Of a stretch of DNA of 34,086 nt, positions 1 through 16,787 are shown in pieces. The stretch is taken from contig NZ_WTVQ01000048.1 in NCBI RefSeq assembly GCF_012910955.1, positions 1-34,086 on the forward strand. Direction: 5' to 3'. The notes under the pieces were generated by a model. It saw nothing but the letters and a program-made list of their open reading frames with translations, was not told the origin of the DNA and searched no databases. A program made the position numbers and the translations under genes. Each line of letters opens with the position of its first letter. Position 1 is the stretch's first letter. The DNA is from Aromatoleum diolicum. Its GTDB lineage: Bacteria > Pseudomonadota > Gammaproteobacteria > Burkholderiales > Rhodocyclaceae.

Positions 1-612
1 CCCCGCCCCATTGGCACCGCGGCTGGCGACGGGTTCGGGTGGGACGGGGGCCTCGACGGCTGCCACGGCAATGCGTGCGAGCTCGTCAGCGTTCGCCGCC
101 GTGTCCTTATCCAGGGCGTTGGTTCTTGCTCCGCGGCAGGCGAATTCCCATTCGGCTTCGGTGGGCAGGCGGAAGCGGTAGCGCTTCTTGTACAGCGCCG
201 TGAGACGTTCGGCGAAGGCGTTGGCCTGCTCCCAGGTCACCCGCGTTACAGGGAGGCTGTCGGCCGTGGTGCTGTTGCCCTCAGGCAGGGAGCCCATCAG
301 TCGTTTCCACTGTTTGCGGGTGACTTCGTGGCGGCCCAGCCAGTAGGCGTCGAGGCATGCCTCGTGCAGGGGGCCTTCGTCGGCCGACAGTGACTGCGTG
401 TAGTTGAGGCGGACCCAGCCGCCGTCGGCTTCAGGGGGCACTTTCGCGTCGTTGCCCATGTGGTAGCAGGCCTTGTCGACGCGGATGAATTCGATGCCGA
501 TCTGCGGATCCTGCCAGGTTTGCGGTGTGCTGCCGTTGGCAGCCTGCACAGTCGTTGCGATCAGGCCGCCGACGAGAAGCAGGGCTGCGGATATCGATTT
601 GATCGGTTTCAT
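1..612 (-). CDS. Secreted FGE-like (SUMF1 / formylglycine-generating-enzyme) domain protein, 3' end outside the window
   Basis: 204 codons are visible; the C-terminus runs off the left edge. The start is an ATG at 612 and shares an ATGA overlap with the stop of the upstream ResB-like gene, implying translational coupling. Residues 1-24 form a Sec signal peptide ending in VQA. After it come the usual N-terminal landmarks of the FGE-sulfatase fold (PF03781): an IGIEFIRVDKACYHMGN block, GPLHEACLDAYWLGRHEVT, a PVTRVTWEQANAFAERL block and RLPTEAEWEFACRGA. Family members include true formylglycine-generating enzymes, the NirV proteins of nitrite reductase loci and many non-catalytic binding proteins. 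The C-terminal half that would carry the active-site cysteines is not in the window, so the activity cannot be judged. Position as the last visible gene after the cytochrome and ResB suggests a periplasmic accessory role. Family call firm, function unknown. Confidence 0.85.
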   Translation of the reverse strand, partial: MKPIKSISAALLLVGGLIATTVQAANGSTPQTWQDPQIGIEFIRVDKACYHMGNDAKVPPEADGGWVRLNYTQSLSADEGPLHEACLDAYWLGRHEVTRKQWKRLMGSLPEGNSTTADSLPVTRVTWEQANAFAERLTALYKKRYRFRLPTEAEWEFACRGARTNALDKDTAANADELARIAVAAVEAPVPPEPVASRGANGAG

Positions 613-1640
613 GTGGTGAGGGGGGCTGCAGGTAGTGGGCGGAAAATGATGCGCGCGTAGAACCACACCAGCGACATCACTACGAGTGCGACGGCGCCGA
701 TGAGCCACGGCTTGGTGGGGTCGGCAACGATGCGGTAACCCATCCAGGAGTCGAGCCGAACATAGGTCAGTGTGCCGCCGGATAGTGCCAGTTGGTCTCC
801 GGGGGTGAGCGTGTGGCGGGTGTCGCCGATGCGCAGGACGATGCGCTGAGCCTCGGTCCCCGCGCCCAAGTTGGTGCGCACGCGCGCCCCGCGGGTCTCC
901 GCGGTGGTGCCGGTCTCCTCGGCGGTTTCGGGATCCACCATCAGCCACGCCTCGCGCCCGTCGGGCAGCACCCAGTCGTTGGCGCCTGCAAAGGCGCCGT
1001 TGTTGCTGTCGCGCAACTGTACGGTGCCCCATTCGTCGGCGCCGTCAGCCGTCTGCCAGCGGAACACCGGGGAAAATCCCCGATGTCGGCTGGTGTAGAT
1101 GCGGTAGCCGTTGATGACCAAGGGGATATCGTCGCCGATGTCCGCGGTGTGCGTCTGGCCGTCGTCCGATTGCCAGCGCACGCGGTTGTAGGTGGTGTGG
1201 AAGCGGCCGCGCTCGGGGTGGTTTTCGGTGAAACCGACGTTCGTGAAGCGTATCTCGGCGATGCGCCGATCATGCAATGCGCCGCTCTCTTCGTTGAGCA
1301 GACTACCGTCGAAACTCGTGCCGGCGGTGACGGTGGCCTGTCCTTCGAAGTAGGTGAGGCGCGCCAGGACCAGCGCGACGATCAGAGCCAACAGCGCGAG
1401 GTGGAAGACGAGCAGCGGGAGATCGGCGCGGAAGCGGCGGCTGGTAACGATCGCGGCGAGCAGATTCAGGGTCAGGAGGGAAAACGGCAGCAGCATGGCC
1501 AGGGTGGCGCTGCGCTCGGGTACTTTTGCCCACAATGCGGCCGCCGCCATGACCACGAAAAAGCTCGCGGACAATTTCGGCGAGGCCAGGGCGTTCAGCC
1601 AGCGGCGCATATTGACGGACGATCCCGGGGCATCCTTCAT
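609..1640 (-). CDS. ResB-like cytochrome c biogenesis membrane protein
   Basis: 343 aa from the ATG at 1640, which overlaps the stop of the 11-haem cytochrome as ATGA. Longer readings extend back through the cytochrome's 3' end and give arginine-rich non-protein-like sequence. An ATG at 1610 is the alternative start. Three hydrophobic segments lie near the N-terminus (about residues 20-38, 42-63 and 72-93), followed by a periplasmic domain of about 200 residues and one C-terminal transmembrane helix (about 311-332). This is the ResB/CcsB topology (PF05140) of System II cytochrome c maturation, in which ResB works with ResC/CcsA to carry haem across the membrane and ligate it to CXXCH. The protein is shorter than typical ResB. 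No ResC/CcsA partner is in the window; it could lie left of position 1. Coupling to an 11-haem cytochrome suggests a dedicated haem-attachment function (inference). Confidence 0.82.
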   Translation of the reverse strand: MKDAPGSSVNMRRWLNALASPKLSASFFVVMAAAALWAKVPERSATLAMLLPFSLLTLNLLAAIVTSRRFRADLPLLVFHLALLALIVALVLARLTYFEGQATVTAGTSFDGSLLNEESGALHDRRIAEIRFTNVGFTENHPERGRFHTTYNRVRWQSDDGQTHTADIGDDIPLVINGYRIYTSRHRGFSPVFRWQTADGADEWGTVQLRDSNNGAFAGANDWVLPDGREAWLMVDPETAEETGTTAETRGARVRTNLGAGTEAQRIVLRIGDTRHTLTPGDQLALSGGTLTYVRLDSWMGYRIVADPTKPWLIGAVALVVMSLVWFYARIIFRPLPAAPLTT

Positions 1641-4198
1641 TGGCAGCCGGATACGTCGGACATCCAGTCCTTGCCGCCATAGTTCGGCGCGCCGCAACTG
1701 GTTTCGGTCCACCGGCCGCTGGCCTGCCAGGTCCTGATACGCAATGCGGCCGAGTTGTAGTAGGGCGCGATGGTCTCGATGCTGGTGCTGGTGCCGTCGG
1801 TGGTGTTGTTGCCGACTGCCGTACAGCCGGCCGGCCTCCCGCCTTCGGGGCCGACGCACTCCAGATTAACGAGGAAGGCCTTGTTCTTCCAGCCGTGGGG
1901 GACTGCAATGTGGCAGCGCATGCAGGGTCTCGAGCTTTTCGTCGTGAATGAGTGCGATGCCTCGCTGGCGCTGCCGTCAAATCCACTGTTCGCGTTCGGG
2001 TTGTGGCAGCGGCCGCAGATACCCCCGCTGGTGTTGCTGTCGCGCGTGCTGCCGGGGGTAACGGTCAGATCCCACACGCCCTTCAGAATGAAGTTTGCCG
2101 AGGAGCCGTGCGGACCCTGCGCCGTGGCGAGATTGGGGGCATTGGTCGTGTCGGTCGGGCTCGTGCCCTGCGTCCAGGAGCCGGCGTGGCCATGGCAATC
2201 CGAGCAGTGCATCGTCTGCGTGCCGAGGTTGGCACGGAACGGCGGACGGAAGTTGTCCATTGTCGTGCCGTTTTGGGTGCGCTCGGCAGCATCCCGCCCC
2301 GTCGGCCAGATCACCGGGTGCCAGGAGCGGTGGTTGTTGCCAGTGGCGCCGCCGCCATTCGGCGAGGTGCCGTTGGGATCGCAGTCGCCTGCGCTGCAGG
2401 CGGTGCCGGCATTGCTCTGTTCTCCCTGGTCGCCGCCCGAGCTGGGGGTGTCGCTGGCGCTGACGGCAAATTCCGCGGCGACGTTGGTGTAGGTGGTCAT
2501 GCCGTTGGCGCTAGCGCCCGAAGGCGTGCCACCCGTGTAGCCGAGCGAGGGCATGCTGCTGCCGTAGTCGGAATGGCACTTGAAGCACAGCTGGTATTCG
2601 CGCGTGAGGTAGGTGCTGGTTTTCGCGGTGCTGGTATTGGCGCCCGGGTCGCCTTTCTTGACGGTATAGCTGCCCGGCGCTTGTGGCCACGTGGTCATGC
2701 CGCCATAGGTCGGTTCGACACCCCAGGTGCCGCGCAGTACACCGGAGGCGACGTTGCCTTCGGATCCAGCCAGGTCGTGAGTGCGTTTGTCCTTGTTGGC
2801 GTCCGCATTGGTGCCGTAGAACTTGCTGTTGCGGATCACGCGGTGGGGGTTGTGGCAGTCTGTGCACTCGACGTGGCGGTTGGCGTTGTTGCCCAGGCCG
2901 AGTTGCTGCGGGGTTTCGATGAAGTCGGCGTTGCTGATGTCGTGTCGCTCGGTGGTGTTGCCGCTGCCGCCTTGATCCGCGGTCTTGATCGGCATGCGGC
3001 GGGCGCGTTCGAACTCTGACTTGATGTTGGGGACGGTTCCGTTCGCGGTCCCGATTACCTTGGTCGCCGTACCCTGATGGCATTGGTAGCAGGTTTCTTC
3101 GATCGCCGAAACGCCGGAGGGGCTTGAGGTCGAGCCGTCCTTGTAGGTGCCGCTGTCGCTGCCGGTGCTGGTGGTGTCGACACCTTCGCGCAGCAGGCGC
3201 CGCGATCCCTGGACCGAATGGGTATCGTGGCAGTTGAGGCAGGCGGCCTCCCACACCCTTGTGCCAACGGGGAATTCGCGGCGGCCAGCGGCCAGGGACG
3301 TGTATGCCTCTTCGGCAACCGTGGTGTTGGCGTGCGCCGAGTTTGACCAGGTCGAACCGAGCTTGTTGTGGCAACCAAGGCAGATCTGGTCGTTGGCGGC
3401 GACGAAGTCGCCCCCGGCCGGCGCGGCTTTCTGCAGCCGGTTCAGGCGCAGGAACTTGCTGGCTTCAAGGTGCGGGTCATGGCAGCTGGTGCACTGTACC
3501 TTGCCTTCGTGGTCGAGCGGCAGCATCGGTTTAACGCCCGAGCTACGGGTGCCGACCACCAGCTTGTCGGAAACGGTATAAGGGGGTTCGCGCAGTTCGC
3601 CGTCGCCGATGATCGCGAGATCGGTGTCGCCCGCAGCGAGGGTCTTGTTGAAGGTGAAGGAAATCGGGTGATCATTGCGCAGATCGACCCCGAGATTGCG
3701 GGTGAAACCAGTCGTTGCACCGAGACCCGTCGGCATGGTGCCGGTGAGGCCGGTCACCGTCGCCGGGTTGGCTTTGCCATCGAGCACCCCGACGGTGCCC
3801 AGCGCCAGGGTGCCGTCATGACAGGACAGGCAAAGCTTGGAACTGCCGCCCGGCTGCGACAGGGCGCCGAAAATCTTTTCGGCATCGAGCGAGTTCGACG
3901 TGTAGGGCGTGTAGGTCGCTGCGTAAGTGTTGCCGTCAGCCGATGCGCCGCCGATCTTGCGGTTCCAAAGCGGCGATGGCGCAGTGGAGTTGGATGCGTG
4001 CGGGGTGTGACAGAAGACGCAGATCTGGTCTTCCGTGGTGGCTTTGGTCGTACCGGGGCCCGAGGCGGACAGGTTGTGCTTGGTGGCCTTGATGTTGGAA
4101 TTGGTGTTGAGCTGGGCGGGCGCGACTGCAACGTAGCCGAGCAGCGCGAGCGCCATGAGCGCCAGGGCGCGGGTCTTGCGAAAGTTTTTCATAACCAT
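1637..4198 (-). CDS. Secreted 11-haem c-type cytochrome (paralogue 1)
   Basis: 853 aa, starting at the ATG at 4198; a second in-frame ATG at 4192 is equally possible and neither has a clear Shine-Dalgarno site. A Sec signal peptide spans about residues 1-29 and ends APA before Gln. Eleven CXXCH haem motifs start at about C60, 123, 236, 273, 320, 370, 445, 538, 665, 728 and 759. Between them lie conserved-looking elements such as KHNLS, NDHPISF, a KFLRLNRL segment, and NNHRSWHP. Four extra cysteines follow the last haem motif (about 781, 792, 834, 852), possibly disulphides. No membrane anchor or lipobox is seen, so the mature protein is probably periplasmic or secreted. Nearly the same motif order occurs in the protein at 7667-10195. 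It is followed without gap by a ResB-like gene. Role in electron transfer is family knowledge; partner and acceptor are unknown. Confidence 0.93.
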   Translation of the reverse strand: MVMKNFRKTRALALMALALLGYVAVAPAQLNTNSNIKATKHNLSASGPGTTKATTEDQICVFCHTPHASNSTAPSPLWNRKIGGASADGNTYAATYTPYTSNSLDAEKIFGALSQPGGSSKLCLSCHDGTLALGTVGVLDGKANPATVTGLTGTMPTGLGATTGFTRNLGVDLRNDHPISFTFNKTLAAGDTDLAIIGDGELREPPYTVSDKLVVGTRSSGVKPMLPLDHEGKVQCTSCHDPHLEASKFLRLNRLQKAAPAGGDFVAANDQICLGCHNKLGSTWSNSAHANTTVAEEAYTSLAAGRREFPVGTRVWEAACLNCHDTHSVQGSRRLLREGVDTTSTGSDSGTYKDGSTSSPSGVSAIEETCYQCHQGTATKVIGTANGTVPNIKSEFERARRMPIKTADQGGSGNTTERHDISNADFIETPQQLGLGNNANRHVECTDCHNPHRVIRNSKFYGTNADANKDKRTHDLAGSEGNVASGVLRGTWGVEPTYGGMTTWPQAPGSYTVKKGDPGANTSTAKTSTYLTREYQLCFKCHSDYGSSMPSLGYTGGTPSGASANGMTTYTNVAAEFAVSASDTPSSGGDQGEQSNAGTACSAGDCDPNGTSPNGGGATGNNHRSWHPVIWPTGRDAAERTQNGTTMDNFRPPFRANLGTQTMHCSDCHGHAGSWTQGTSPTDTTNAPNLATAQGPHGSSANFILKGVWDLTVTPGSTRDSNTSGGICGRCHNPNANSGFDGSASEASHSFTTKSSRPCMRCHIAVPHGWKNKAFLVNLECVGPEGGRPAGCTAVGNNTTDGTSTSIETIAPYYNSAALRIRTWQASGRWTETSCGAPNYGGKDWMSDVSGCQ

Positions 4199-4260
4199 TC
4201 GTGAACCGTGGGTATAGGGGCGCTCGTGGGGTCGCTCGCGTGCCGCGCATGCTAAACGAA

Positions 4261-5856
4261 TTATGGGATCGGTGCGAAATTACGTGGTTCCGCGCCGGCC
4301 TGGATCTTGAGGTCGCGCCGGTGGGCATTGACATTGCGCAACATGGCCTTGACCTCTTCGGGCATGCGTTTGCCGGCCGCGGCCATTTCCTGCATCTGCC
4401 CGGAGAGGTAAGAGTGGTTGATGAGGATGTCGAATACGGACAGCATGAATTCACGCTTCCAGGTCGACAGTTCATCGAGGTTCTGGAACTTGTGCATGAA
4501 GAAGTTGCGTGCGGCACGGCCAAGTTCGCGTTCAACCTCTTCCAGCGTCATCGCGTCCGGTTTGACCACCGGCTGGACCAGGTTGTACTTGCTGTAATCC
4601 TTGGTCGCGACGTGGGCTTCGAGCTGCGGATAAAGGTCGGCATAGGGCCACGGTGCGATGGCGAGGAAGAAGGCCATGTCCGGGTTGTAGAGCTTGGCGA
4701 GTTCGACCGCTTCCTTGAAGGTTTCCGGAGTATCGGTCGGCATGCCGAGCACGAAGGAAGTCTCGGAAACGATGTCGGCCTGATTGATGATTTCGATGGC
4801 GCGGCGCGAGTCTTCGGCCTTGGAGCCTTTCTTGAAGAGATCGAGGGTGGCCTGCTGACCGGCTTCGACGCCGACGTAGATATGCTCGACGCCGGCGAGC
4901 GCGTAGCGGTCCATGATGTCCTCGTCGCGGACGATGTCGTCGACGCGGGTTTCCATCAGCAGGCGCACGCCGGGCTTGCGCTCGATCATCAGCTCGAGGA
5001 TGCGTTCCCAGCGGGCGCGGTCGAGCGTGGGGATCTCATCGGCGAGCATCGCGACCTGAACGCCGTACTTCTTCTGCAGCATTTCCAGTTCGGCAACGAA
5101 GTTTTCGGCGCTGCGTGCGCGCCAGCCACGGCGCCAGAACAGTTTTTGCGAGCAGAAGGAGCAGTCCTGCTGGCAGCCGCGCGCGGACGAGACGATCGCA
5201 AGGCGCGCGTTGTTTTTCGCCCGGTAGGTGTAGATCGGCCATTCGACCAGATCCCACGCGGTCGGCAGCGAGTCCAGGTCGCGGATAAAGGCCGCCGAGC
5301 GCGTGGCGATGACGCCACCGTCGCGCCAGAAGGCGAGGCCGGCGACCTTGGCCGGATCGTCGCCGGCATTGAGGCAGTTGAGCAGTTCCGGCAGCGTGCG
5401 TTCGCCTTCGCCGCGCACGACGAAGTCGATGACATCGTTGTCGACGCGCAGCATCTCCGGGTAGCAGAAGGTGGCGTGCACGTTGCCGATGACGGTGACG
5501 ATCTCGGGGTCGACTTCCTTGGCCAGCCGCAGCAGGCTAGTTGCAGCAATGATGGCGGCGGTGAAGGCGGACGTGCATACGACGTCGGGGCGGAAGTCTT
5601 CGAGCCGCTTACGGATGTCGTCTTCCTTGTGCCACAGCGACATGGCGTCGTAGTAATCGACTTCGTAGCCGGCTTCGCGCAGGGCGCCGGCGATGTAGAC
5701 GAAACCGACGTTGAGCCAGGTGCCGGCGGATTCGACCACGCCCGAGTGGTAGGGCACGGTGACCAGCGCGACCCGCTTGATCTTGCGCCGACGGGGGATG
5801 GCGGGCGTCACGCGTGGGGGCGGGACGAAGGTGATCGGGGAATCGGTTGTTTTCAT
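4261..5856 (-). CDS. Cobalamin-binding radical SAM protein
   Basis: 531 aa from the ATG at 5856, preceded by a weak AGAG ribosome site. Residues about 27-165 form a B12-binding-like Rossmann domain (VALVTVPYH, LREAGYEVDYYDA, GNVHATF, RGEGERTLPELL). The radical SAM cluster motif CxxxCxxC is at C228, C232 and C235, and the barrel continues with ADEIPTL, METRVDDI, VGVEAGQQ and ETSFVLGMPTDTPE. About 130 residues of helical C-terminal extension end the protein. B12 radical SAM enzymes typically methylate or rearrange unactivated carbon or phosphorus atoms; the substrate here cannot be read from sequence. The 62 nt gap to the 11-haem cytochrome downstream suggests one transcript. An FNR-like promoter lies 36-84 nt upstream of the start. 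A second, unrelated-looking B12 radical SAM protein is encoded at 14744-16165. Confidence 0.9.
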   Translation of the reverse strand: MKTTDSPITFVPPPRVTPAIPRRRKIKRVALVTVPYHSGVVESAGTWLNVGFVYIAGALREAGYEVDYYDAMSLWHKEDDIRKRLEDFRPDVVCTSAFTAAIIAATSLLRLAKEVDPEIVTVIGNVHATFCYPEMLRVDNDVIDFVVRGEGERTLPELLNCLNAGDDPAKVAGLAFWRDGGVIATRSAAFIRDLDSLPTAWDLVEWPIYTYRAKNNARLAIVSSARGCQQDCSFCSQKLFWRRGWRARSAENFVAELEMLQKKYGVQVAMLADEIPTLDRARWERILELMIERKPGVRLLMETRVDDIVRDEDIMDRYALAGVEHIYVGVEAGQQATLDLFKKGSKAEDSRRAIEIINQADIVSETSFVLGMPTDTPETFKEAVELAKLYNPDMAFFLAIAPWPYADLYPQLEAHVATKDYSKYNLVQPVVKPDAMTLEEVERELGRAARNFFMHKFQNLDELSTWKREFMLSVFDILINHSYLSGQMQEMAAAGKRMPEEVKAMLRNVNAHRRDLKIQAGAEPRNFAPIP

Positions 5857-5898
5857 TATTCTCTGTAAGCAATCGTGTCGGGGCGGACTACCGGCGGG

Positions 5899-5940
5899 AT
5901 GGTAGGTGAGCGGCGACCCGGCGGGTTTGACCTACATCAA
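5899..5940 (-). promoter_or_regulatory. Candidate FNR/Anr-dependent class II promoter of the radical SAM-cytochrome operon
   Basis: The inverted repeat TTGAC-CTAC-ATCAA at 5927-5940 matches the FNR consensus TTGAT-N4-ATCAA in 9 of 10 positions. On the minus strand a -10-like TACCAT is at 5899-5904, its centre exactly 32 bp from the box centre, the geometry of a class II site centred at -41.5. This predicts a start near 5892 and a 36 nt leader to the ATG at 5856. The site lies in the gap after the LuxE-like gene. Promoter activity is inferred. Confidence 0.6.
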
Positions 5941-5967
5941 CGGCATGGCCCAAGGCGTGCCGAAGCG

Positions 5968-5984
5968 GCGTGCAGGGGGCACGC
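5968..5984 (-). terminator. Small hairpin between the LuxE-like gene and the FNR-like box
   Basis: GCGTGC and GCACGC form a perfect 6 bp stem around a 5 nt loop, 20-36 nt beyond the stop of the LuxE-like gene. There is no U-tract after it on the minus strand, so it may be a weak terminator, a processing site or chance in GC-rich DNA. Confidence 0.25.
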
Positions 5985-6003
5985 TCGCGACGGTAGGGCG
6001 GAA

Positions 6004-7380
6004 TCAGGATGCGGAAATGTCGCGCGCCGGAGTGCTCGCGGCGGTGTCGCGCGGGATCGGGTTGGCGAGCATTTCCTCGCTGAGTTCGTCGCACGGACAG
6101 ACGGGCGGAGTCATTGGCAGCGGCGCGAGTGCCGATGTCATTGCTGCATCGGGCTGGCGGACACGGGCGAGTCCCATCTTGAAGCGGATCGAGAAGTTCA
6201 CGTACGCTTCGAGGAAACGGAAGATGCGCTTGTCGCCCATCGGGCCTACCGCACGTTCGCTCGGCAGCGGGGTGATCTTGCCGTCGACGACTTTGGCACG
6301 GCCGACGATCTGGAAGCTGCCGTCGTTGTCGACATAGCCGAGATTGTCGGTCTGTACGGCGAGCACGGTGGGCAGATTGGCGAGGTCGTAATGGCGCAGC
6401 AGACCGACCTCGCCGGGAGGCAGCGGCTGCAGGTCGTCAAGCCCAACCGCCGCAACGCGTGCCCAGGGGGGCGTCAGGCGCCGCCGCGCCGAGGGCGCGC
6501 CGAGGATCGCCGCGCGCAAGGTGTCGTCGAAATAGTTGGTGGCGCTTTCGGCCATGCCGAGCACGTTGACGCAATGCGAGGCCGGCAGGCCAAGGACTTC
6601 GCCGGCGAGGCGGAAATAGTCGTCCTGCGTGAGTTCGCCGAAGCGGCCGCGGTAGCCGCCGCCGTCGCCGATGCGGCTGCCGGTGGGGAGCCGGAAGCGC
6701 AGGCCGCGGGCCTTGCAGGCGTTGAAGAAATACACGAAGGCGGAGGTCGAGCCGATCATCGCAACCGGTATGCCGCTGGTTTCGGATTCGTCGAGCGCAG
6801 CGATCAGACCTTTGATGTCGAGGCCCGAGTAGTCGAGCAAGAAGCTGCTGTCGGCGGTGCCGAAGTGGCGCCGGGTTTCGTCCATGCCGACGGCCATTCC
6901 CATCGATGGCGCCATCTCGGGGCTCGGCGCAAGGATGAGAATCCGGCAGCGCTGGCCCTGCACGAAGTCTGGGAAGAGGTAGGCGCCCGTCATCACGCGG
7001 TTGGCTGACAGGATCAGGTCGCGGCCAACGTCGTCTCGGAAGATCTGCCCGCGCTTGTTCGCCGTCGTGCCACTGGTGATCTGCGCCATCACCGCCTGTT
7101 CCGGAGGGAAGGACGTGACGATGGTGGTCTTGAAACTATCGGTGGGGAAGGCGGGTAACCTGCGCCAGTCGGAGACCGCTCGAGGCGTGATACCCTTCGC
7201 CAAGCAAAATTCGCGGTAGGGCGCGTTGCGTTCGTACTGCCATTCGAAGATCTGGGGGGCGAGTTCTTCGAAGGGTGTCCGATCTCCGTCGACGCCAGCG
7301 ATAATCATCGCGCGGATGCGCTCGGCGAGTCGTTCGCGTTCGGGATCCGGCCTTGCGTCGGGGGATTCGGTGATGGTCAT
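6004..7380 (-). CDS. LuxE-like acyl-protein synthetase / AMP-forming acyl-activating enzyme
   Basis: 458 aa from the ATG at 7380; a GTG at 7407 would add nine residues, and neither start has a strong ribosome site. The protein resembles the LuxE family (PF04443) and related adenylating enzymes. It has the TDSFK segment near residue 80, the phosphate-binding ITSGTTANKRG loop with SGTT at 103-106, a Gly-rich GDGGGY turn near 238-243, MAESATNYFD near 276, and the adenylate-binding TDNLGYVDNDGSF followed by VGRAK at about 344-363. LuxE activates a fatty acid as acyl-AMP and holds it on a cysteine near its C-terminus. Here the C-terminal tail contains a CPC pair at 428/430 followed by an acidic stretch. 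No LuxC reductase or acyl-CoA gene is adjacent, so the acyl substrate and acceptor are unknown. It sits between two 11-haem cytochrome genes and has its own FNR-like promoter. Confidence 0.82.
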   Translation of the reverse strand: MTITESPDARPDPERERLAERIRAMIIAGVDGDRTPFEELAPQIFEWQYERNAPYREFCLAKGITPRAVSDWRRLPAFPTDSFKTTIVTSFPPEQAVMAQITSGTTANKRGQIFRDDVGRDLILSANRVMTGAYLFPDFVQGQRCRILILAPSPEMAPSMGMAVGMDETRRHFGTADSSFLLDYSGLDIKGLIAALDESETSGIPVAMIGSTSAFVYFFNACKARGLRFRLPTGSRIGDGGGYRGRFGELTQDDYFRLAGEVLGLPASHCVNVLGMAESATNYFDDTLRAAILGAPSARRRLTPPWARVAAVGLDDLQPLPPGEVGLLRHYDLANLPTVLAVQTDNLGYVDNDGSFQIVGRAKVVDGKITPLPSERAVGPMGDKRIFRFLEAYVNFSIRFKMGLARVRQPDAAMTSALAPLPMTPPVCPCDELSEEMLANPIPRDTAASTPARDISAS

Positions 7381-7521
7381 CGGCGGAGGCTCAACGGTTG
7401 CGCGCACCGACGGGACCGCCGACGCTCAGTCCGTGCGAGCGACCACTGGGAAGCTCGTGGGTCCGGATCAGCCTGAGTCTCATGCGCATCAATTGCCGGC
7501 GGCCTAGGGATAAGTGTGCGC

Positions 7522-7563
7522 ACTCTACCAACAGTCGCAACGGGACTTGTTGATCAAGATCAG
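7522..7563 (-). promoter_or_regulatory. Candidate FNR/Anr-dependent class II promoter of the LuxE-like gene
   Basis: Read on the minus strand, CTGAT-CTTG-ATCAA (7550-7563) matches the FNR consensus in 9 of 10 positions. A -10-like TAGAGT lies at 7522-7527 with its centre 32 bp from the box centre, exactly as for a class II site at -41.5. The predicted start is near 7515, giving a leader of about 135 nt before the ATG at 7380. The same geometry is found at 5899-5940. Regulation is inferred, not shown. Confidence 0.62.
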
Positions 7564-7631
7564 GCGGGGCTCTCGGCAGGCCGCGGCGGCCGCAGCTTAG
7601 TGCTGCCTATAGGGCCACGCATCTGAACAGA

Positions 7632-7653
7632 CCGGGCCGCTGCGCAGGCCCGG
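7632..7653 (-). terminator. Likely terminator hairpin after 11-haem cytochrome paralogue 2
   Basis: A perfect 7 bp GC stem (CCGGGCC/GGCCCGG) with an 8 nt loop begins 14 nt downstream of the stop at 7667. The minus strand continues TCTGTTC, a poor U-tract, so termination may be partial. It separates the cytochrome from the FNR-like promoter of the next gene. Confidence 0.55.
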
Positions 7654-7666
7654 TGGTGGAATCAAC

Positions 7667-10195
7667 TCACGGCGGGCTGGAGCAGGTGTTGGTCATCCAG
7701 TCCTTGCCCGTGGCCGGATTGGTGTTGTTGGAGGTGCTGCCCTGGCTGTTGGCGATCAGGTTGGTGCCGGTCTTTTGCGCCGATCCGCAGTCGGACTCCA
7801 CCCAGTTCGAGTTCTGGCGGAAGGTGACGATCTTGAGCTTTGCGCGGCGGTAGTACGGCCCTTCGCTGTAGTTGCTGCTGCTGCCACTGATTGCGACCTC
7901 CTTGCTGCCGCTCTGGCCCGCTTCGGCGCCAACATCGTTGAGGTTGACGAGGAACGACTTGTTTTTCCAACCGTGCGGCACCGCGACGTGACACCAGTTG
8001 CACCGCATGCTGCCGACCTTCTCTCGATGATATGAGTGCAGGTCGCCCCGGTCGCTATTGCGGAAACCGGTGGTGCCGCCGCCGTTGGCATATACCGTGG
8101 AATGACATCTGAAGCACAACGCGTTGGTGTCCGGACTGCCGCTGCTGGTGTTCCACGGTCCTTTCAGCAGGAAGTTGTTGGTCGAGCCGTGCGGCCCCCA
8201 CGGGTTGGTTCCGCTCGGCGTGATTGTGCCGGAGGCAGTGGCGTTGCCGTGGCAGTCGGTGCAGTGCATCGTCTGGTTGCCGACGTTGGCGTTCCACGGC
8301 GCGAGCCACGAATTGGCGCTCGCGCCGTTGCGCAGCGCCGTTGTCCGGCCAGTGATATCCATCACCGGATGCCAGGAGCGGTGGTTGTTGGTGTTGTTGC
8401 CGGCGCCGGCATCGGTGCCCTGGCTGCCTGGCGCGCCCTGGTGCGTCACAGGCGCCTGGAATTCGCGCGCCTGATTCGTGTAGCGGGTGTAATTGTTGCG
8501 CTCTGTGGCGGCCGCGGGGGTGCCGGGCGAGGCGAGCTCCGGTCGGCTGTTCCCGCTCGGATAGACGTTGTCGTCCGAGTAAGCGTAGTCCGAGTGGCAT
8601 TTGAGGCACACCTGGTATTCACGCGTCACCCACGTGCTGGCGACCGCAGTGCTGGCGCCTTGGCCGCCGTCGCCGGTCTTTTCGGTAAAACTGTTCGGCA
8701 CGGCGAAGAAGCTGCGTGAGCCGTATACCGGTTCGATGCCGAAGGCGCCGCGCAGCGCGCCGGATGCGAGGTTGCCGTTCGTGCCGCCCGGCGTGTGGGT
8801 GCGTTGGGTGTTCACCCCGGTGCCGTTGAACAGGCTGTTCCGGGTGACACGGTGCGGGTTGTGGCAATCGGTGCACTCGGCGTGGCGGTTGTTGACGTCG
8901 AGCTGGCCGAGCGTCGTGCGTTCTTCGGTGAAGTTGCGGTCCTTGATGTTGTGCGTTTCGACGCCGGATTTCTGTTCGCTGGTGGTGATCGGCATGTGCC
9001 GCAGCAGGCTGAAATCGGTCTTGATGTCGGGAACGCTGCCATTGGCGGTGCCGATGACGCTATTGGCGCTGGTGGTGTGGCACTGGTAACAGGTTTCCTC
9101 GACGGCCGAAACGCTGTTTGGCGAACTGGTGGAGCCGAGCTTGTAGCTGCCGACCCCGGTGCCGCCGCTGCTGCCACTGACGCCTTCGCGCAGCAGTCGG
9201 CGCGTGCCCTGGACGGCGTGGGTGTCGTGGCAGTTGAGACAGGCCGCCTGCCATACCTGGGTGCCGGTGGGGAATTCGCGCAGGGTGGCGGATTCGAGCT
9301 TGTAGGCCTCGTCGGCGATGGTCTGCGAGGCGTGCGAGGACTGTGACCAGGCTGTGCCAAGCTTGTCGTGGCAACCGAGGCAGATCTGATCGATGGCCGG
9401 GTTGAAGTCGCTGCCCGCGGGCTGGGAGGTCTGCAGACGGTTGAGGCGCAGGAATTTGGATGCGTTCAGGTGCGGGTCATGACAGGTCGTGCACTGCACT
9501 TGCCCGGCCCCGCCGGTTCCCGTGTTTTGAAGCGGCAGCAGGGGTTTGTAGCCCGAGCTACGAATGCCGATGACGGTGCCGGTGCCCACCGGGTGGCGCT
9601 GCTGGGCGTCCATCCCGCGCAATTCGCCATCCGTCGTTGCCAGCGTACTGTCGTAGGTGAAGGAGATCGGATGGTCGTTGCTCAGGTTGACGCCGAGGTT
9701 GCGGGTAAAGCCGGAGGTGGCGCCCTGCGGCCCGGCAGGCATCTTCCCCAGATCGGTACCGCTCATGGCCACCGACACGTTGGTTTTTCCGCCCAGTACG
9801 CCGACTGTTCCGAGTGCCATGGTGCCGTCGTGGCAGGACAGGCACAGCTTCGAACTGCCGCCGGGCTGGGACAGAACGCCCCCGAGGATGGTCTGGGCGT
9901 CGAGCGAGTTGGAGGTGTACGTGGTGTAGGTGGCGCTCGAGAGTTCGCGGTTCCACAGCGGCGGTGGCGCGGTCACGTTGGCGGCGTGCGGGGTGTGACA
10001 GAAGACGCAGATCTGGCTTTCGGAGGTGGACTTGACCGATCCGCTTCCCGACGTGGACAGGTTGTGTTTGGTGCTGGCGATGTCTGACTGCTGTGCCGCG
10101 GCAGGGCGGATGTCACCTGCCGCAATGAACAACATGAGCAGGGCAACAGTCAGGACATGCCACAAGCCTAGGGCGAGGGGCGGGCATTTACCCAT
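7667..10195 (-). CDS. Secreted 11-haem c-type cytochrome (paralogue 2)
   Basis: 842 aa from the ATG at 10195, chosen because a well-formed Sec signal peptide (hydrophobic core VLTVALLMLFIAAG, cleavage after PAAA) starts right there. The frame stays open 192 nt further to a GTG at 10387, but that sequence is hydrophilic and not signal-like. Eleven CXXCH motifs follow in the same order as in 1637-4198, with shared blocks: KHNLS, ICVFCHTPH, KLCLSCHDGT, NDHPISF, VQCT-CHDPH, KFLRLNRLQ, CLGCH, AACLNCHDTH, ETCYQCH, ECTDCHNPHRV, NNHRSWHPV and VPHGWKNKSFLVNL. The last haem is at MRCNWCH, followed by about 100 residues with two cysteines. No membrane anchor is visible. It is the upstream member of a cytochrome pair that flanks the LuxE-like and radical SAM genes. 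Periplasmic or extracellular electron transfer is the family expectation. Confidence 0.93.
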   Translation of the reverse strand: MGKCPPLALGLWHVLTVALLMLFIAAGDIRPAAAQQSDIASTKHNLSTSGSGSVKSTSESQICVFCHTPHAANVTAPPPLWNRELSSATYTTYTSNSLDAQTILGGVLSQPGGSSKLCLSCHDGTMALGTVGVLGGKTNVSVAMSGTDLGKMPAGPQGATSGFTRNLGVNLSNDHPISFTYDSTLATTDGELRGMDAQQRHPVGTGTVIGIRSSGYKPLLPLQNTGTGGAGQVQCTTCHDPHLNASKFLRLNRLQTSQPAGSDFNPAIDQICLGCHDKLGTAWSQSSHASQTIADEAYKLESATLREFPTGTQVWQAACLNCHDTHAVQGTRRLLREGVSGSSGGTGVGSYKLGSTSSPNSVSAVEETCYQCHTTSANSVIGTANGSVPDIKTDFSLLRHMPITTSEQKSGVETHNIKDRNFTEERTTLGQLDVNNRHAECTDCHNPHRVTRNSLFNGTGVNTQRTHTPGGTNGNLASGALRGAFGIEPVYGSRSFFAVPNSFTEKTGDGGQGASTAVASTWVTREYQVCLKCHSDYAYSDDNVYPSGNSRPELASPGTPAAATERNNYTRYTNQAREFQAPVTHQGAPGSQGTDAGAGNNTNNHRSWHPVMDITGRTTALRNGASANSWLAPWNANVGNQTMHCTDCHGNATASGTITPSGTNPWGPHGSTNNFLLKGPWNTSSGSPDTNALCFRCHSTVYANGGGTTGFRNSDRGDLHSYHREKVGSMRCNWCHVAVPHGWKNKSFLVNLNDVGAEAGQSGSKEVAISGSSSNYSEGPYYRRAKLKIVTFRQNSNWVESDCGSAQKTGTNLIANSQGSTSNNTNPATGKDWMTNTCSSPP

Positions 10196-10544: not shown

Positions 10545-11960
10545 TCAATGGGCAGGGTCGTTCGGGGGCGTTTCGAGGTAGGGAAAATAGTGCCGGTCGG
10601 CGCCGACGAGGTGCTGGGCGACGACTTCGTAGGCGAGGAAGTGGAACACTTCGGCCACAGGCAGGTCGTCGTCGCCGCAGGCCCGATTGAAGAGGTGCGC
10701 GGCTTTCTCCAGCAACCGGGCGTGTTCGACGGCATGGGCATGTCGTCCGGGAAAACTGATTTCAGCGTGCAGCCGCTCTTCATCGGCAAAATGCGCGGCG
10801 ATGTCGTCGACGAGCAGCCGGAGCGCGTCGAGAATCTGCTCGCGCGGGGCGTGGGTCATGACTGCCTGCAACAGCCGATTGGCGTGGTCGAACAGCTGGC
10901 GGTGCTGCCGGTCGACGGTGGCATCGCCACTGCGGTAGGCGTCGCGCCACACCAGCTGTACCGGCGAACATGCCGCGCGTGCGCCGTCGGCGCGGAAGGC
11001 GGACTGCGGGTCGGCGATGACGCCATTGCGCCCCGACGACTTGGCGCGATACATCGCCCGGTCTGCGCGCGACAGCCAGTGATCGAAGCCCTCGCCGCAC
11101 TGGTATTCGGCGACCCCCACGCTGATCGTGACCTGGCGGGCGCTGGAGAGTTGTGTCGCGGCGACGCGCGCGCACAGTTTCTGGGCGAGCTGTTCCGCTT
11201 CGTGGAGCGGGGTGTCGGGGGCGAGCACGATGAATTCTTCCCCGCCCCAGCGGGTGATGGTGTCGGCGCGGCGGATGTCACTGCGGATGCAGCGCACCAG
11301 CTCCACCAGTACGTAGTCGCCGACGGCGTGACCAAAGTGGTCGTTGATGTCCTTGAAATGGTCGATGTCGAGCACCAGCAGCGCAGCCGGGTGGCCGTGG
11401 CGTTCGGCGCGCGACATTTCCAGCAGCGCTGCGTCCTCGAGGTGACGACGATTCCAGGCTCCGGTCAGGCGGTCGGTGTAGGCCAGGCGCTCCATCTGTT
11501 CGAGCGCGCGCAGCAACTCGGCATGGCGCGCTTCGGCGTAGTCGGCTGGATCGATCGGCGTGTCGGTGCGGGCGTGGGCGTCGAGTTCGGTGGCGATCAT
11601 GCCGGTGGCAACGACCTTGCCGTTGTGCGAGCGGATCGGGAAACGCGTCGTGAGGAAGCGTCGCGTGCGCAGGCCGACTTGAGCCTCTTCCTCGGCGTGC
11701 GTGACGCCGTCGCCGGGGGCGCCGCCGATGCGCAGCGCCTGGGGGGTGGACGCGTCGCGCAGGATGTCATCCTCGTGACGACCAAGCAGCGATTCTGCGG
11801 GCAGGCCGAGGACTTTTGCGAAGGCTTCGTTGGCATACCGGTAATCGCCGCCGTTGCCGCGAATGGCGATGAGTGCCGGGGACTGGTCGACCAGCGAATG
11901 CAGGAGCGACGTGCGCGGGTCACCGGCCTTCGCTGCCGGCGATGCTTGCTTTCCGCTCAT
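10545..11960 (-). CDS. PAS-GGDEF-hemerythrin diguanylate cyclase
   Basis: 471 aa, ATG at 11960. Domains in order: PAS (about 20-130), GGDEF (about 155-315) with GGEEF at 239-243 and an RRAD inhibitory I-site at 230-233, then a bacteriohemerythrin domain (about 335-465). The hemerythrin part keeps all seven expected di-iron ligands with family spacing: H353; H390 and E394; H409 and H413; H450 and D455. Cyclase signature residues (LVLDIDHFKDINDHFGH) are intact, so it should make c-di-GMP. The hemerythrin domain is known in this family to bind O2 at the di-iron site, so cyclase output is probably tuned by oxygen or redox state. No transmembrane helix is visible, so it is cytosolic. It is the first gene in the leftward run that leads into the FNR-linked cytochrome cluster, though 349 bp separates it from that cluster. 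Confidence 0.93.
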   Translation of the reverse strand: MSGKQASPAAKAGDPRTSLLHSLVDQSPALIAIRGNGGDYRYANEAFAKVLGLPAESLLGRHEDDILRDASTPQALRIGGAPGDGVTHAEEEAQVGLRTRRFLTTRFPIRSHNGKVVATGMIATELDAHARTDTPIDPADYAEARHAELLRALEQMERLAYTDRLTGAWNRRHLEDAALLEMSRAERHGHPAALLVLDIDHFKDINDHFGHAVGDYVLVELVRCIRSDIRRADTITRWGGEEFIVLAPDTPLHEAEQLAQKLCARVAATQLSSARQVTISVGVAEYQCGEGFDHWLSRADRAMYRAKSSGRNGVIADPQSAFRADGARAACSPVQLVWRDAYRSGDATVDRQHRQLFDHANRLLQAVMTHAPREQILDALRLLVDDIAAHFADEERLHAEISFPGRHAHAVEHARLLEKAAHLFNRACGDDDLPVAEVFHFLAYEVVAQHLVGADRHYFPYLETPPNDPAH

Positions 11961-12264
11961 TCGTGCTTCTCCCCGTGCGTGTGCGAAATACCCGTAATCG
12001 CGAAATGGTTTGCGATTTCGGCGATTTTAGCGGGATCGTGGGGGGATTTGCGTGAATCCGGTCACAAACACCCGGGATGGAAGGGAGTGGCGACGGCAGT
12101 GGTCAAACAGGGGTATAGTCCGGCCCGTTCAAAACCCTCGGGATCGCTCGCTTGTTCGCGGATTCGACCGGCTTCTTCGCCAATGCTGTCGCCATGTTGC
12201 CGTCCCGGTCGGGCGGGGTGAGCGCGCGCGTGCGCGTGCAGTCTTGCGTGCGGGGGGAAGGCGT
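11961..12264. other. 304 bp divergent intergenic region
   Basis: This lies between the hemerythrin cyclase (minus) and the GT9 gene (plus). A plus-strand -10-like TATAGT is at 12114-12119 without a recognisable -35. A 6 bp inverted repeat AATCGC/GCGATT at 11996-12001 and 12012-12017 sits near the cyclase start. The GT9 frame is open upstream from 12052, but the sequence there is Arg-rich and poorly protein-like. A 38-codon frame that begins at a TTG (12152) and whose TGA overlaps the GT9 start codon is also open. I do not call either as a gene. Confidence 0.4.
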
Positions 12265-13545
12265 GTGATCGGGCACGAGACCATGCGGCGCCTCGACCGC
12301 TTCTGCGGTATGCCTGCCTGCCTGCTGCTGACGGCACTGCGCCGTGTGCGGGGGCTGGTGCGTGGGCAGGATCGGCACGGCCGGCAGGCGGTGCGGCGCG
12401 TGCTGTTCGTGCAGCTGGCGGAGTCGGGCAGCATGGTCCTGGCCGACCCGGCGATGCGGGATCTGGCGACGCGTAGCGGTGCCCAGCTGTATTGCCTGAC
12501 CTTTGCGCACAATCGCGCCAGTCTGGCGATTACCGGCACGGTGCCGGAGGCCCACGTGTTCACGATCCGGACCGGTTCTGCACGTGAAATTCTGGGTGAC
12601 GCCGGGCGTTTTCTGCGCTGGGTGCGGCGGACGCGCATCGACGCGATCGTCGACCTCGAACTGTTTTCGTGCCTGACCGCAGTGCTGTGCCTGCTGACCG
12701 GCGTGGCGCGGCGGGTCGGGTTTCACCGCTTCGACGGCGCGGGCTTGTATCGCGGCGATCTCTATTCGCATCCGGTGGCTTTCAACCCGCAGCTGCACAT
12801 GGCGCAGAACTATCTCCTGCTGGTTGAAGCGCTGTTCGGCGTCGCGACGCCTCCCGCGCCGCGCGTGCCGACGGCGGCGCTGGAGCCGCGCGTGCATCGG
12901 CGGGCGATCAGTGCCGTCGAACTGGACGCCGTGCGCAAGCGTCTCGCCGATTGTCTGCCACCGGGCGCCGAAGCAAATGAGCGTCTGGTACTGGTGAATG
13001 CCAACGCAAGCGCATTGCTGCCGCAGCGGCGCTGGCCGCAGGAGCATTTCGTGGCACTGGTGCGCAGCGTGCTTGAACATTTTGCCGACGTTCGTGTACT
13101 GCTCATCGGGGCGGCCGAGGATGGCGCGACCACCGGGGCGATCGCGGCACAGCTGGCCGATTCGCGCTGCGTCGATGTCGCGGGACGCTTTGCGCTCGGG
13201 GAGTTGCCGGCGCTCTTCAGTCTGAGCGCGGTGATGGTCAGCAACGACTCCGGGCCGGCGCATTTCGCGGCGGTGACGCCTTTGCCGGTGATCGTGCTGT
13301 TCGGGCCGGAAACGCCGGTGCTGTTCCGCCCGCTCGGCGTGGCGACGGTGCTGAGTGCCGGCCTGGCGTGTTCGCCCTGCGTCAATGCCGGCAACCAGCG
13401 CCGTTCGCGCTGCGCCGACAACCAGTGCATGCAGCGCATTTCGGTCGATGAGGTGTTCGCGGCGCTGTGTCCGGTGCTGGAAGCGCCGGTTGTGCCGAGC
13501 GGGCTTGCGTGCCCGAACGACTTGCGGGAGGCTGCCGGCGTATGA
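12265..13545 (+). CDS. Glycosyltransferase family 9 (heptosyltransferase-like)
   Basis: 426 aa starting at the GTG at 12265, chosen because GGGGGAAGG lies just upstream at good spacing; the frame is open further upstream to 12052 and an ATG lies at 12283. The protein shows the two-lobed GT9 (PF01075) pattern. The N-terminal lobe has VRRVLFVQLAESGSMVLADPA and a LAITGTVPEAHVFTI segment. The C-terminal lobe has LVLVNANASALLPQRRWP, VLLIGAAEDGA, and the signature VSNDSGPAHFAA with FGPETPVLFRPLG. GT9 enzymes move ADP-heptose and related sugars onto LPS core or other glycans. A cysteine-rich stretch (CSPCVNAGNQRRSRCADNQC) follows, as is common in this family. The stop overlaps the next gene's start as ATGA, so the three genes 12265-16165 are translationally linked. 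Acceptor unknown; no other LPS genes are nearby. Confidence 0.88.
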   Translation: MIGHETMRRLDRFCGMPACLLLTALRRVRGLVRGQDRHGRQAVRRVLFVQLAESGSMVLADPAMRDLATRSGAQLYCLTFAHNRASLAITGTVPEAHVFTIRTGSAREILGDAGRFLRWVRRTRIDAIVDLELFSCLTAVLCLLTGVARRVGFHRFDGAGLYRGDLYSHPVAFNPQLHMAQNYLLLVEALFGVATPPAPRVPTAALEPRVHRRAISAVELDAVRKRLADCLPPGAEANERLVLVNANASALLPQRRWPQEHFVALVRSVLEHFADVRVLLIGAAEDGATTGAIAAQLADSRCVDVAGRFALGELPALFSLSAVMVSNDSGPAHFAAVTPLPVIVLFGPETPVLFRPLGVATVLSAGLACSPCVNAGNQRRSRCADNQCMQRISVDEVFAALCPVLEAPVVPSGLACPNDLREAAGV

Positions 13546-14747
13546 TCCCGCGCCGGCGCATTGCCCTGGAAGGGGCGGACCTCGTCGATGCGCTGCGTAC
13601 GCTGTGGGTGTCCCCCGCTCAGGCCGCAGCGCAGGTGGCGGCGTTCGAGCAGGCATTCGCGGCGACGATCGGTGTGTCGCATGCACTCGCCACCGCCAGC
13701 GGGCGTGACGCGCTGGGGCTGATTCTCGATGGCCTGGGACTGAGCGCCGGCGATCAACTGATCATCCCCGCCTACACGCTGGGTGAACTGGTGCCGCTGA
13801 TGCGCGCGCGCGGCATCGAGCCGGTGCCCGCCGATGTCGATCCGCAGACCTTCAATGTGACGGTCGATAGCGTCGCGGTGCGCCTCGGGCCGCGCACGCG
13901 GGGCATTTTCGTGGTGCATCTGCTGGGAGCGCCGTGCGACATTCGCGCCATCTGCGCACTCGGCGATGCGCACGGCCTGCCGGTTATCGAGGATTGCGCG
14001 CACGCGCTGGGCGCGCGGATCGACGGCCGTGCGGCGGGCAGTTTCGGCCGCGCCGCGCTGTTCAGCCTGGAGGCGACCAAGGCCGTGGCGGCGTTCGGGG
14101 GGGGCGTGTTGACGACCGCCGACGACGCGCTCGCGGCTGCGATCCGTGCGCGCCTCGCCGGACGCGAGCGGCGCGAGTGGCCGCCGGTGCGCAAGATGCT
14201 GCTGAAATTCGTCGAAGAGGCAGCGGTGCGCAGTCCCGCCTATGGCGTACTCGCGCGCCTGATGTTCTCGAATCGGCGCGCCGGGGGCTTCGACCGCTTC
14301 TACCGCCGTGCCCATGACCGGGTGCGTGGCACGGCCGCCGCTTTCAGCGCCTTTCAGGCGCGTGTCGGATTGCGCAAACTCGCGCGCGTGGGCGATCGTC
14401 AGCGGCGTTTGAATGCGCAGTGGCAGGCGCTGGCGCAACAGCTGCCGTCGCGCTTTGCCAGCCAGCACCGCGACACCCTGGGTGAGGCGGCGTTCTACAA
14501 TTTTGTCGCGCGCTTCGATGGCGACATCGCCGAGTTGCGCGCGGCGGCGCAGCGCCATGGGCTCGACCTCGGCATCGGTGGCGAGGTGATGGACGACACC
14601 GCATCCATGCTCGGTCTTGCCGACTGCCCGGGAGCCGCCGCTTCGCGCGCCCAGGCGGTGCTGATCCCCCTGTACGAGGGGCTTTCCGAACGCCGGCGCC
14701 GGCGCATGCTCGATATCCTTCATCGCCTTGCGCGGGAACTGCCGTGA
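13542..14747 (+). CDS. DegT/DnrJ/EryC1-family PLP aminotransferase
   Basis: 401 aa, ATG at 13542 overlapping the GT9 stop; a GGGAGG ribosome site lies 10 nt upstream. Fold type I features of the nucleotide-sugar aminotransferase family are present: SGRDALGLIL near residue 53, an IIPAYTLGELV block, the VIEDCAHALGA motif with D151 expected to pair with the pyridine nitrogen, and the Schiff-base lysine K180 in SLEATKAVAAFGGGVL. A C-terminal half rich in arginine includes an FDRFYRRAHDRVRGT segment. Such enzymes install amino groups on keto-sugars or act as PLP-dependent dehydratases or epimerases on sugars. The next gene starts with a GTGA overlap. With GT9 and radical SAM neighbours, an amino-sugar or modified glycan product is likely (inference). 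No sugar dehydratase gene is seen locally. Confidence 0.88.
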   Translation: MIPRRRIALEGADLVDALRTLWVSPAQAAAQVAAFEQAFAATIGVSHALATASGRDALGLILDGLGLSAGDQLIIPAYTLGELVPLMRARGIEPVPADVDPQTFNVTVDSVAVRLGPRTRGIFVVHLLGAPCDIRAICALGDAHGLPVIEDCAHALGARIDGRAAGSFGRAALFSLEATKAVAAFGGGVLTTADDALAAAIRARLAGRERREWPPVRKMLLKFVEEAAVRSPAYGVLARLMFSNRRAGGFDRFYRRAHDRVRGTAAAFSAFQARVGLRKLARVGDRQRRLNAQWQALAQQLPSRFASQHRDTLGEAAFYNFVARFDGDIAELRAAAQRHGLDLGIGGEVMDDTASMLGLADCPGAAASRAQAVLIPLYEGLSERRRRRMLDILHRLARELP

Positions 14748-16239: not shown

Positions 16240-16587
16240 TTAGTGGCCGGAGCAGCCGCAGCCGCCGCCGCCGCCACCGCCGCATCCGCCACCCTGGCGT
16301 GCGGCCGCAGGTTCCGCTGCGGGCTCGCTTGCCTGCAGTTGAACGCGGAAATCGATGACGATGTTGCCCGGTTCGCGCGCGACGTAGGCGATGGCGATCT
16401 GCGAGCCATAACGTTGCTGGATCTGGCCGAGCAGCGGCACGGGATCGTGGTCGTTTACGAAACGCATGGTTTCGCCGTCCTCGAGCGATTCGAGGGCGCC
16501 GAAGATGGCGGCGTGGCGAAAGCGCTTGGCGACGCCGCGTGCGTCGAAGGGGAACACGGCGTTGTCGGTGATCGGCAGTTCATTCAT
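16240..16587 (-). CDS. DUF2249 domain protein with a Gly/Cys-rich tail
   Basis: 115 aa from the ATG at 16587, preceded by a strong GGAGGA ribosome site 7-12 nt upstream. Residues about 35-92 match the DUF2249 pattern: a FGALESLEDGETMRFVNDHDP stretch (cut here by design at its core), PVPLLGQIQQRYG, and a final IDFRVQL strand. DUF2249 proteins are small cytosolic proteins often found beside or fused to hemerythrin domains and redox genes; their exact function is not established. The last 17 residues consist of Gly, four Cys, Ser and a terminal His (pattern C-G7-C-G-C-S-G-H preceded by GGGC... as one run), which looks metal-binding. The gene is alone on the minus strand between the radical SAM operon and the binding-protein operon. 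Confidence 0.8.
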   Translation of the reverse strand: MNELPITDNAVFPFDARGVAKRFRHAAIFGALESLEDGETMRFVNDHDPVPLLGQIQQRYGSQIAIAYVAREPGNIVIDFRVQLQASEPAAEPAAARQGGGCGGGGGGGCGCSGH

Positions 16588-16787
16588 GGAAGCATCCTCC
16601 GGGGTGGGGGCGGCGGAAAGGTGCCGCAGAGTTCGGATGCTAGGGGGCGCCCCGCCGTCGCGCCTTGAGCCAGAACAAGAATTGACCCGCCGGCGATGCT
16701 TCGGGCGCCTGTCCAGATTATGACAATGTGCGTGACGACGCATGCTGTGTTACTTTCTGTAAAAAGAAGAATGAACAGGGAACCTGC

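Follow-up and report, generated by a model that had tools for sequence, protein, structure and literature searches.

Gene content of the locus

The stretch of DNA analysed here (the window, 34,086 bases) is the entire contig C89 of the 5.1 Mb genome of Aromatoleum diolicum, a bacterium that is kin of known anaerobic pollutant degraders. Its left end carries genes for two multihaem c-type cytochromes, a LuxE-like protein and a B12-binding radical SAM protein (rSAM). The closest named relatives at this locus are A. toluvorans, A. toluolicum and A. evansii. An earlier note had described six co-directional genes at positions 1 to 10195. All six are present on the minus strand in the order cytA, LuxE-like, rSAM, cytB, ResB and FGE-like, the last being interrupted by the contig end (Table 1). 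The overlap of the ResB and FGE genes, claimed there as well, amounts to four bases, and cytB and ResB overlap by the same length. In the FGE-like proteins the feature detected was the FGE-sulfatase domain (Pfam). Beyond the earlier note, the analysis recognised the OmcE-like N-terminal third of both cytochromes, the resemblance of the rSAM protein to BchE and, in relatives, three further genes past FGE1.

Table 1. Genes of the cassette region and linked neighbours in the window
Feature	Position	Strand	Basis
cytA, 11-haem c-type cytochrome	7667..10195	-	11 CxxCH; N-terminal third OmcE-like; signal peptide by eye
LuxE-like, probable acyl-adenylating protein without KGCS cysteine, C-terminal CPCD extension	6004..7407	-	Pfam LuxE 7e-17; PDB 7xc6_E (LuxE) 8.5e-13
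rSAM, B12-binding radical SAM protein, most similar to BchE	4261..5856	-	Pfam B12-binding 2e-28, Radical_SAM 2e-23
cytB, second 11-haem cytochrome, cytA paralogue	1637..4198	-	11 CxxCH; 54% identity to cytA
ResB-like cytochrome c synthase subunit (System II)	609..1640	-	Pfam ResB 2e-11
FGE1, FGE-sulfatase-domain protein, interrupted by contig end	1..612	-	Pfam PF03781 2e-17; signal peptide by eye
PAS-GGDEF-hemerythrin protein, linked to cytA on its upstream side, not part of the cassette	10545..11960	-	Pfam
Glycosyltransferase family 9 (GT9) protein, linked neighbour	12052..13545	+	Pfam PF01075 2.7e-25; position conserved
DegT-family aminotransferase, linked neighbour	13467..14747	+	Pfam PF01041 7.8e-56; position conserved
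rSAM2, second radical SAM protein, linked neighbour	14744..16165	+	Pfam Radical_SAM 2.6e-10
Small conserved protein, between rSAM2 and a substrate-binding-protein gene	about 16240-16743	-	

A cassette with a LuxE-like/rSAM pair recurs in relatives

Searches of Pseudomonadota genomes found close homologues of the LuxE-like protein (612 bits or more, or 85% identity) in nine genomes, the window's included; one contig scan across all phyla used patterns from a single LuxE protein and reached close relatives only. The wide genome samples scored part of the first-look candidates (18 found and four scored in the window's genome), so misses are possible. The earlier note had named the pair occurring without the cytochromes in most genomes as evidence against its proposal. 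We found the rSAM gene beside LuxE in eight of the nine genomes. Counting the window, eight loci carry the pair in the same order, one other genus being among them, and an eight-gene order is common to the loci of seven relatives: LuxE, rSAM, cytB, ResB, FGE, FGE2, TPR and CcsA (the cassette). The window shows this order up to FGE1; past the point where its contig ends, FGE2, TPR and CcsA follow in 7/7 loci. Two of the seven begin at a contig end and have no upstream genes. Because the gene order is repeated in seven further loci, it is not a product of chance.

The ninth genome was that of Noviherbaspirillum denitrificans, where a truncated LuxE ends at a scaffold gap of 10 N (L026 at 10933). 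A truncated stretch of cytB-ResB-FGE-FGE2-TPR-FGE-FGE2-CcsA begins at another 10-N gap (L119 at 7965), far away on the same contig, and no cassette-type rSAM was found in this assembly. The arrangement suggests a misordered scaffold across one cassette. Thus the case is probably an assembly break and not a LuxE without the cassette.

Within the genus, LuxE and the cassette-type rSAM (394 bits or more) occurred, adjacent to each other, in the same six of 13 genomes, while the remaining seven had neither. One pair-less genome, G104, yielded a hit of 439 bits, but this protein is of the other BchE-like type and 31% identical. The presence of both genes in the same 6/13 genomes ties the pair to the cytochrome cassette. 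At the G104 locus a glycosyltransferase family 87 (GT87) gene directly follows cytA, and its homologue directly follows CcsA in six cassette loci; the G104 locus looks as if the cassette had been excised. GT87 was absent from the G103 locus, which likewise is without the cassette, nor did the roughly 1.1 kb covered past CcsA in A. evansii contain it.

Identity to the window was 89-92% for rSAM (six orthologues) and 77-86% for LuxE, compared with 55-67% for cytB, 41-78% for ResB and 37-75% for FGE1. By these alignments, conservation of rSAM and LuxE exceeds that of the cytB, ResB and FGE1 proteins encoded around them.

The cytochromes are related to OmcE

The two cytochromes are paralogues with exactly 11 CxxCH motifs apiece, as the earlier note had it, and 11 CxxCH motifs were present in every one of 13 homologous cytochromes compared. 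OmcE-type haem proteins are linked to electron movement outside the cell. A sequence search of solved structures matched OmcE (PDB 7tfs) with cytA at 2.7e-24 and with cytB at 3.5e-23; a profile of 13 homologues reached 1.9e-30. In addition, cytA matched another multihaem cytochrome, PDB 9yuq, at 8e-16. The matching region is the N-terminal third of the cytochromes, which corresponds to residues 16-231 of Geobacter OmcE. On the other hand, the proteins described here have 11 haems and about 840 residues against four haems and 232 residues in OmcE.

We aligned the 13 cytochromes with OmcE residues 16-231, and cytA with five orthologues. The histidines of OmcE's four CxxCH motifs and four of its five other histidines were kept in 13/13 cytochromes, and the fifth in 0/13. 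Across the 13 cytochromes, 11 motif histidines and 14 others were invariant, a number sufficient for bis-His ligation of 11 haems, and we infer that all 11 would be ligated in this way. OmcE filaments have an inter-subunit haem ligand (excerpt of PMC12954529), and their role in physiology is a matter of dispute (excerpt of PMC11077965).

Another contig of the window's genome carries an OmcE-like four-haem gene (5e-30 to 7tfs). In genomes of the Aromatoleum group (L111, L113, L115, L116, L127, L128 and L129) such genes lie in an electron-transfer island together with another ResB-CcsA-TPR set, and with a SurA/peptidylprolyl isomerase-like protein, trihaem cytochromes and NHL-type proteins, these three named by reading. 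Where island and 11-haem gene share a contig, as for the OmcE-like gene in three relatives, the distance to the nearest 11-haem gene is 22-38 kb.

ResB and CcsA commonly accompany the 11-haem cytochrome

The 11-haem cytochrome was found in 24 of 398 Pseudomonadota genomes, the window's own among them. We read 18 neighbourhoods from 17 of the 23 other genomes, with a threshold of E 1e-8. ResB was present in 17/18, CcsA in 16/18 and TPR in 10/18, while LuxE, the BchE-like rSAM, FGE and FGE2 were found in 0/18. Four of these loci, whose genes were listed, had further multihaem or trihaem cytochromes nearby, and in one of the four, family searches bore out a peptidylprolyl isomerase, an NHL protein and a trihaem 'nanowire' domain. 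At the level of whole genomes, none of the 23 had a LuxE match (E 1e-20), and just one had an rSAM match (E 1e-60), which in G713 is a BchE elsewhere on the chromosome. Since this cytochrome, ResB and CcsA commonly occur together where both enzymes are absent, we concluded that the three form a common module, to which the LuxE-like/rSAM pair is an addition. Linkage of the pair to 11-haem cytochromes and ResB, which the earlier note had named as support for its proposal, does recur in relatives.

ResB of the window and CcsA, found downstream in 7/7 relatives' loci, make up the System II pairing (ResB-ResC or CcsB-CcsA), although the window's contig ends before CcsA. The relatives' CcsA matched Cytochrom_C_asm at 1.2e-25 and TIGR03144 with 138 bits, below the cut-off of 188. 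Like known System II loci, the cassette unites ResB, CcsA and TPR proteins. Another ResB-CcsA-TPR set adjoins the OmcE-like genes in the three relatives checked (G044, G103 and G009), which makes the cassette's set the second one in G044 and G009. The cassette differs from known systems in being this second set. Its haem motifs are of the ordinary CxxCH type, unlike those of the dedicated Wolinella enzymes, which are CX15CH and CXXCK (excerpts of PMC12285233 and PMC10663686).

The LuxE-like protein, a probable divergent ligase

In LuxE the TSGTT stretch has an adenylate-forming role and a C-terminal cysteine carries the acyl group. The cassette protein has the LuxE domain, and TSGTT was present in 13/13 rows of the alignment. 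The designation as an acyl-activating LuxE-like protein in the earlier note calls for a reservation over the cysteine of the KGCS motif, which we take to be the acyl-carrying site of the LuxC-paired homologues: KGCS was seen in 5/5 LuxC-paired rows and in 0/7 cluster rows extending to the C-terminus. The LuxE of 7xc6 is not comparable at this column, as its match ends earlier. Instead, all seven LuxE-like sequences that extend so far have a C-terminal extension with an invariant CPCD. Furthermore, a LuxC acyl-CoA reductase gene adjoins 5/5 more distant LuxE homologues, whereas no LuxC partner was found among the cassette genes. We regard the protein as a divergent ligase rather than a strict LuxE. 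Its predicted structure, from an eight-row alignment, had a mean predicted local distance difference test (pLDDT) score of 40.5 and was too poor for use.

The rSAM protein is most similar to BchE

The identification of a B12 radical SAM protein in the earlier note was borne out by the B12-binding and Radical_SAM domains (Pfam) and by CxxxCxxC in the alignment. BchE is the anaerobic oxidative cyclase that acts on Mg-protoporphyrin IX monomethyl ester in bacteriochlorophyll synthesis. The cassette rSAM was 35-40% identical to 11 BchE proteins over 430-500 residues. Identity was 31% with three other BchE-like paralogues, of which the window's genome encodes one, and 23-26% with a further type of B12-radical SAM protein. 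With BchE it has YxSGxxExAGxW, ADExPT and KYNxVxP stretches in common. All seven of its matches in the 398 genomes, its own apart, were BchE with 740-823 bits on the family model TIGR02026; beside six of the seven a BchJ-like gene lay within the stretch read, one being confirmed by family search. Among 11 plasmid matches, ten were annotated as BchE or its cyclase and the remaining record was unannotated. Lipid and cofactor families of B12-radical SAM enzymes scored lower on rSAM, HpnR with 150 bits and the ladderane type with 98 bits. The cassette protein differs from BchE by scoring below the family cut-off and by its gene neighbours, among which neither bchJ nor any other bacteriochlorophyll gene was found. 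The predicted structure (seven-row alignment, mean pLDDT 49.5) was too poor for use.

Other BchE-like paralogues were seen in the window's genome (L020, contig C122, 1823-3544, 460 bits on TIGR02026) and in G814 (L130, 9961-11532, 515 bits). Both lack the N-terminal motif of BchE, with no chlorophyll genes among the neighbours listed, and they may be misannotated as BchE. The G814 protein exceeds the BchE cut-off without the shared N-terminal motif; the family name is thus no proof of function.

Neighbouring genes

The PAS-GGDEF-hemerythrin gene adjoins cytA in every locus read that extends so far, whether the cassette is present or absent, and suggests control of the cytochromes by cyclic di-GMP and by oxygen or redox state. 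Next to it, GT9, DegT and rSAM2 form a conserved set, which in the loci L018 and L025 from metagenome-assembled genomes is co-directional with the cytochrome operon. The small protein beyond rSAM2 has a Gly/Cys-rich C-terminal tail in the relatives L017 and L112. A promoter and terminator scan found no promoter-like sites, and 13 terminator-like sites compared with 9.9 (standard deviation 3.7) in shuffles.

Discussion

Our interpretation starts from what was observed: the gene content, its conservation, the relationship to OmcE and the joint presence and absence of the enzyme pair. The locus is very probably one for cytochrome maturation and electron transfer, and its product would be a cytochrome specialised for electron transfer outside the cytoplasm. 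The cassette would contribute a single 11-haem cytochrome of the OmcE type, a System II haem-attachment set of its own and a pair of tailoring enzymes that are probably cytoplasmic. That the LuxE-like protein and rSAM tailor these cytochromes in some way we consider rather probable. The LuxE-like protein would convert a carboxylate to its adenylate, an activated compound that rSAM would next oxidise, cyclise or methylate.

As the leading single candidate for the target of the two enzymes we tentatively propose the haem itself, with less than even odds, for three reasons. The rSAM protein resembles an enzyme that acts on a porphyrin. Neither enzyme has a signal peptide that can be seen by eye; both are apparently cytoplasmic, and haem is available in that compartment before export. 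Finally, a partner that activates carboxylates has its parallel in the reaction preceding BchE, which closes the isocyclic ring once the C-13 propionate is methylated (excerpt of PMC5972617). Export of the altered haem and its attachment by ResB-CcsA would follow. Spelled out as a pathway to an altered haem c, a LuxE-derived ligase would activate a propionate, a BchE-derived rSAM would form a new bond (e.g. an exocyclic ring or a keto group) and ResB-CcsA would insert the product into the OmcE-type cytochrome, tuning its potential; in this full form the proposal is distinctly unlikely.

Several points weigh against a haem-tailoring role. At the loci of G103 and G104, the two pair-less genomes out of seven that were examined for cytA, cytA is still in place without LuxE and rSAM, and the upstream GGDEF-hemerythrin, GT9, DegT and rSAM2 genes are kept as well. 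The functional unit postulated in the earlier note is supported in part, with the cassette as the unit in place of the six genes as listed, since cytA persists without the enzymes and three more genes belong to the cassette. Higher conservation is frequent among cytoplasmic enzymes, which tempers the argument from conservation. The haem motifs of cytA and cytB are ordinary CxxCH in 22/22 cases, and because ResB and CcsA lie beside the 11-haem cytochrome also where the enzymes are absent, dedicated haem attachment alone does not imply an unusual haem. To our knowledge, no LuxE-type ligase acts on a porphyrin. Moreover, the near full-length match of rSAM to TIGR02026 reached 405 bits, below the cut-off of 481, and was outscored by the second BchE-like paralogue of the same genome with 460 bits. 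One tree united the cassette rSAM with that other paralogue type (support 97/96, with a long-branch warning), while the first tree had placed it elsewhere. Because the two trees disagree and have long branches, a position of rSAM as sister of BchE is not secure, and we relied on pairwise similarity instead.

Modification of protein or glycan, or synthesis of a free small molecule, is nearly as likely as a haem target. The two enzymes might modify the cytochrome polypeptide or a glycan on it, e.g. with an unusual acyl or methyl group, which we regard as possible but somewhat unlikely. The LuxE family activates acyl groups, GT9, DegT and GT87 genes flank the locus, and OmcE is reported to be glycosylated (excerpt of PMC11077965). 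Yet GT9, DegT and rSAM2 stay with cytA in G103 and G104 and are not tied to the pair, and the nearest named relative of rSAM acts on a tetrapyrrole. We give a similarly low chance to a free product such as a modified lipid, a quinone-like mediator or a signal, made by the pair in cooperation with the cytochromes or merely co-regulated with them. The scores of the HpnR and ladderane-type families on rSAM and the LuxC gene beside five distant LuxE homologues fit such a product, but the eight genes of the cassette include neither LuxC nor a gene for an acyl carrier, and rSAM is far closer to BchE than to the lipid enzymes.

It is improbable that the two enzymes are unrelated passengers between two cytochrome genes. 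In favour of this reading, the 11-haem cytochrome with ResB and CcsA exists without the pair, which was found in 0/18 loci; on the other hand, the pair is jointly present in six and jointly absent in seven of the genus genomes, keeps its order in eight loci including another genus, and is conserved above cytB, ResB and FGE1. Even less credit, close to none, goes to rSAM as a genuine BchE left from photosynthesis. Its best matches outside the clade are BchE proteins and it aligns to their model over nearly the full length, but it falls far short of the seven BchE in score, has no BchJ beside it (no search for other chlorophyll genes in this genome was made) and is conserved at 89-92% beside cytochromes. 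We rejected a true BchE or photosynthesis remnant on score and neighbours.

The combination of LuxE, radical SAM protein and multihaem cytochrome was not found in the literature searched, which is limited evidence of novelty, nor was a paper joining BchE, cobalamin and anaerobic cyclase. Papers naming Aromatoleum and extracellular electron transfer do exist, but none was found on multihaem cytochromes in this genus. The locus reveals a multihaem electron-transfer module in Aromatoleum, and the genomes with and without the cassette enzymes permit a direct comparison. In known cytochrome wires the haems are nominally identical, bis-His ligated, and their potentials are set by the surroundings (excerpt of PMC12954529). 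A cytochrome that comes with its own haem-attachment set and a BchE-like enzyme makes it conceivable that some bacteria instead modify the cofactor or the protein.

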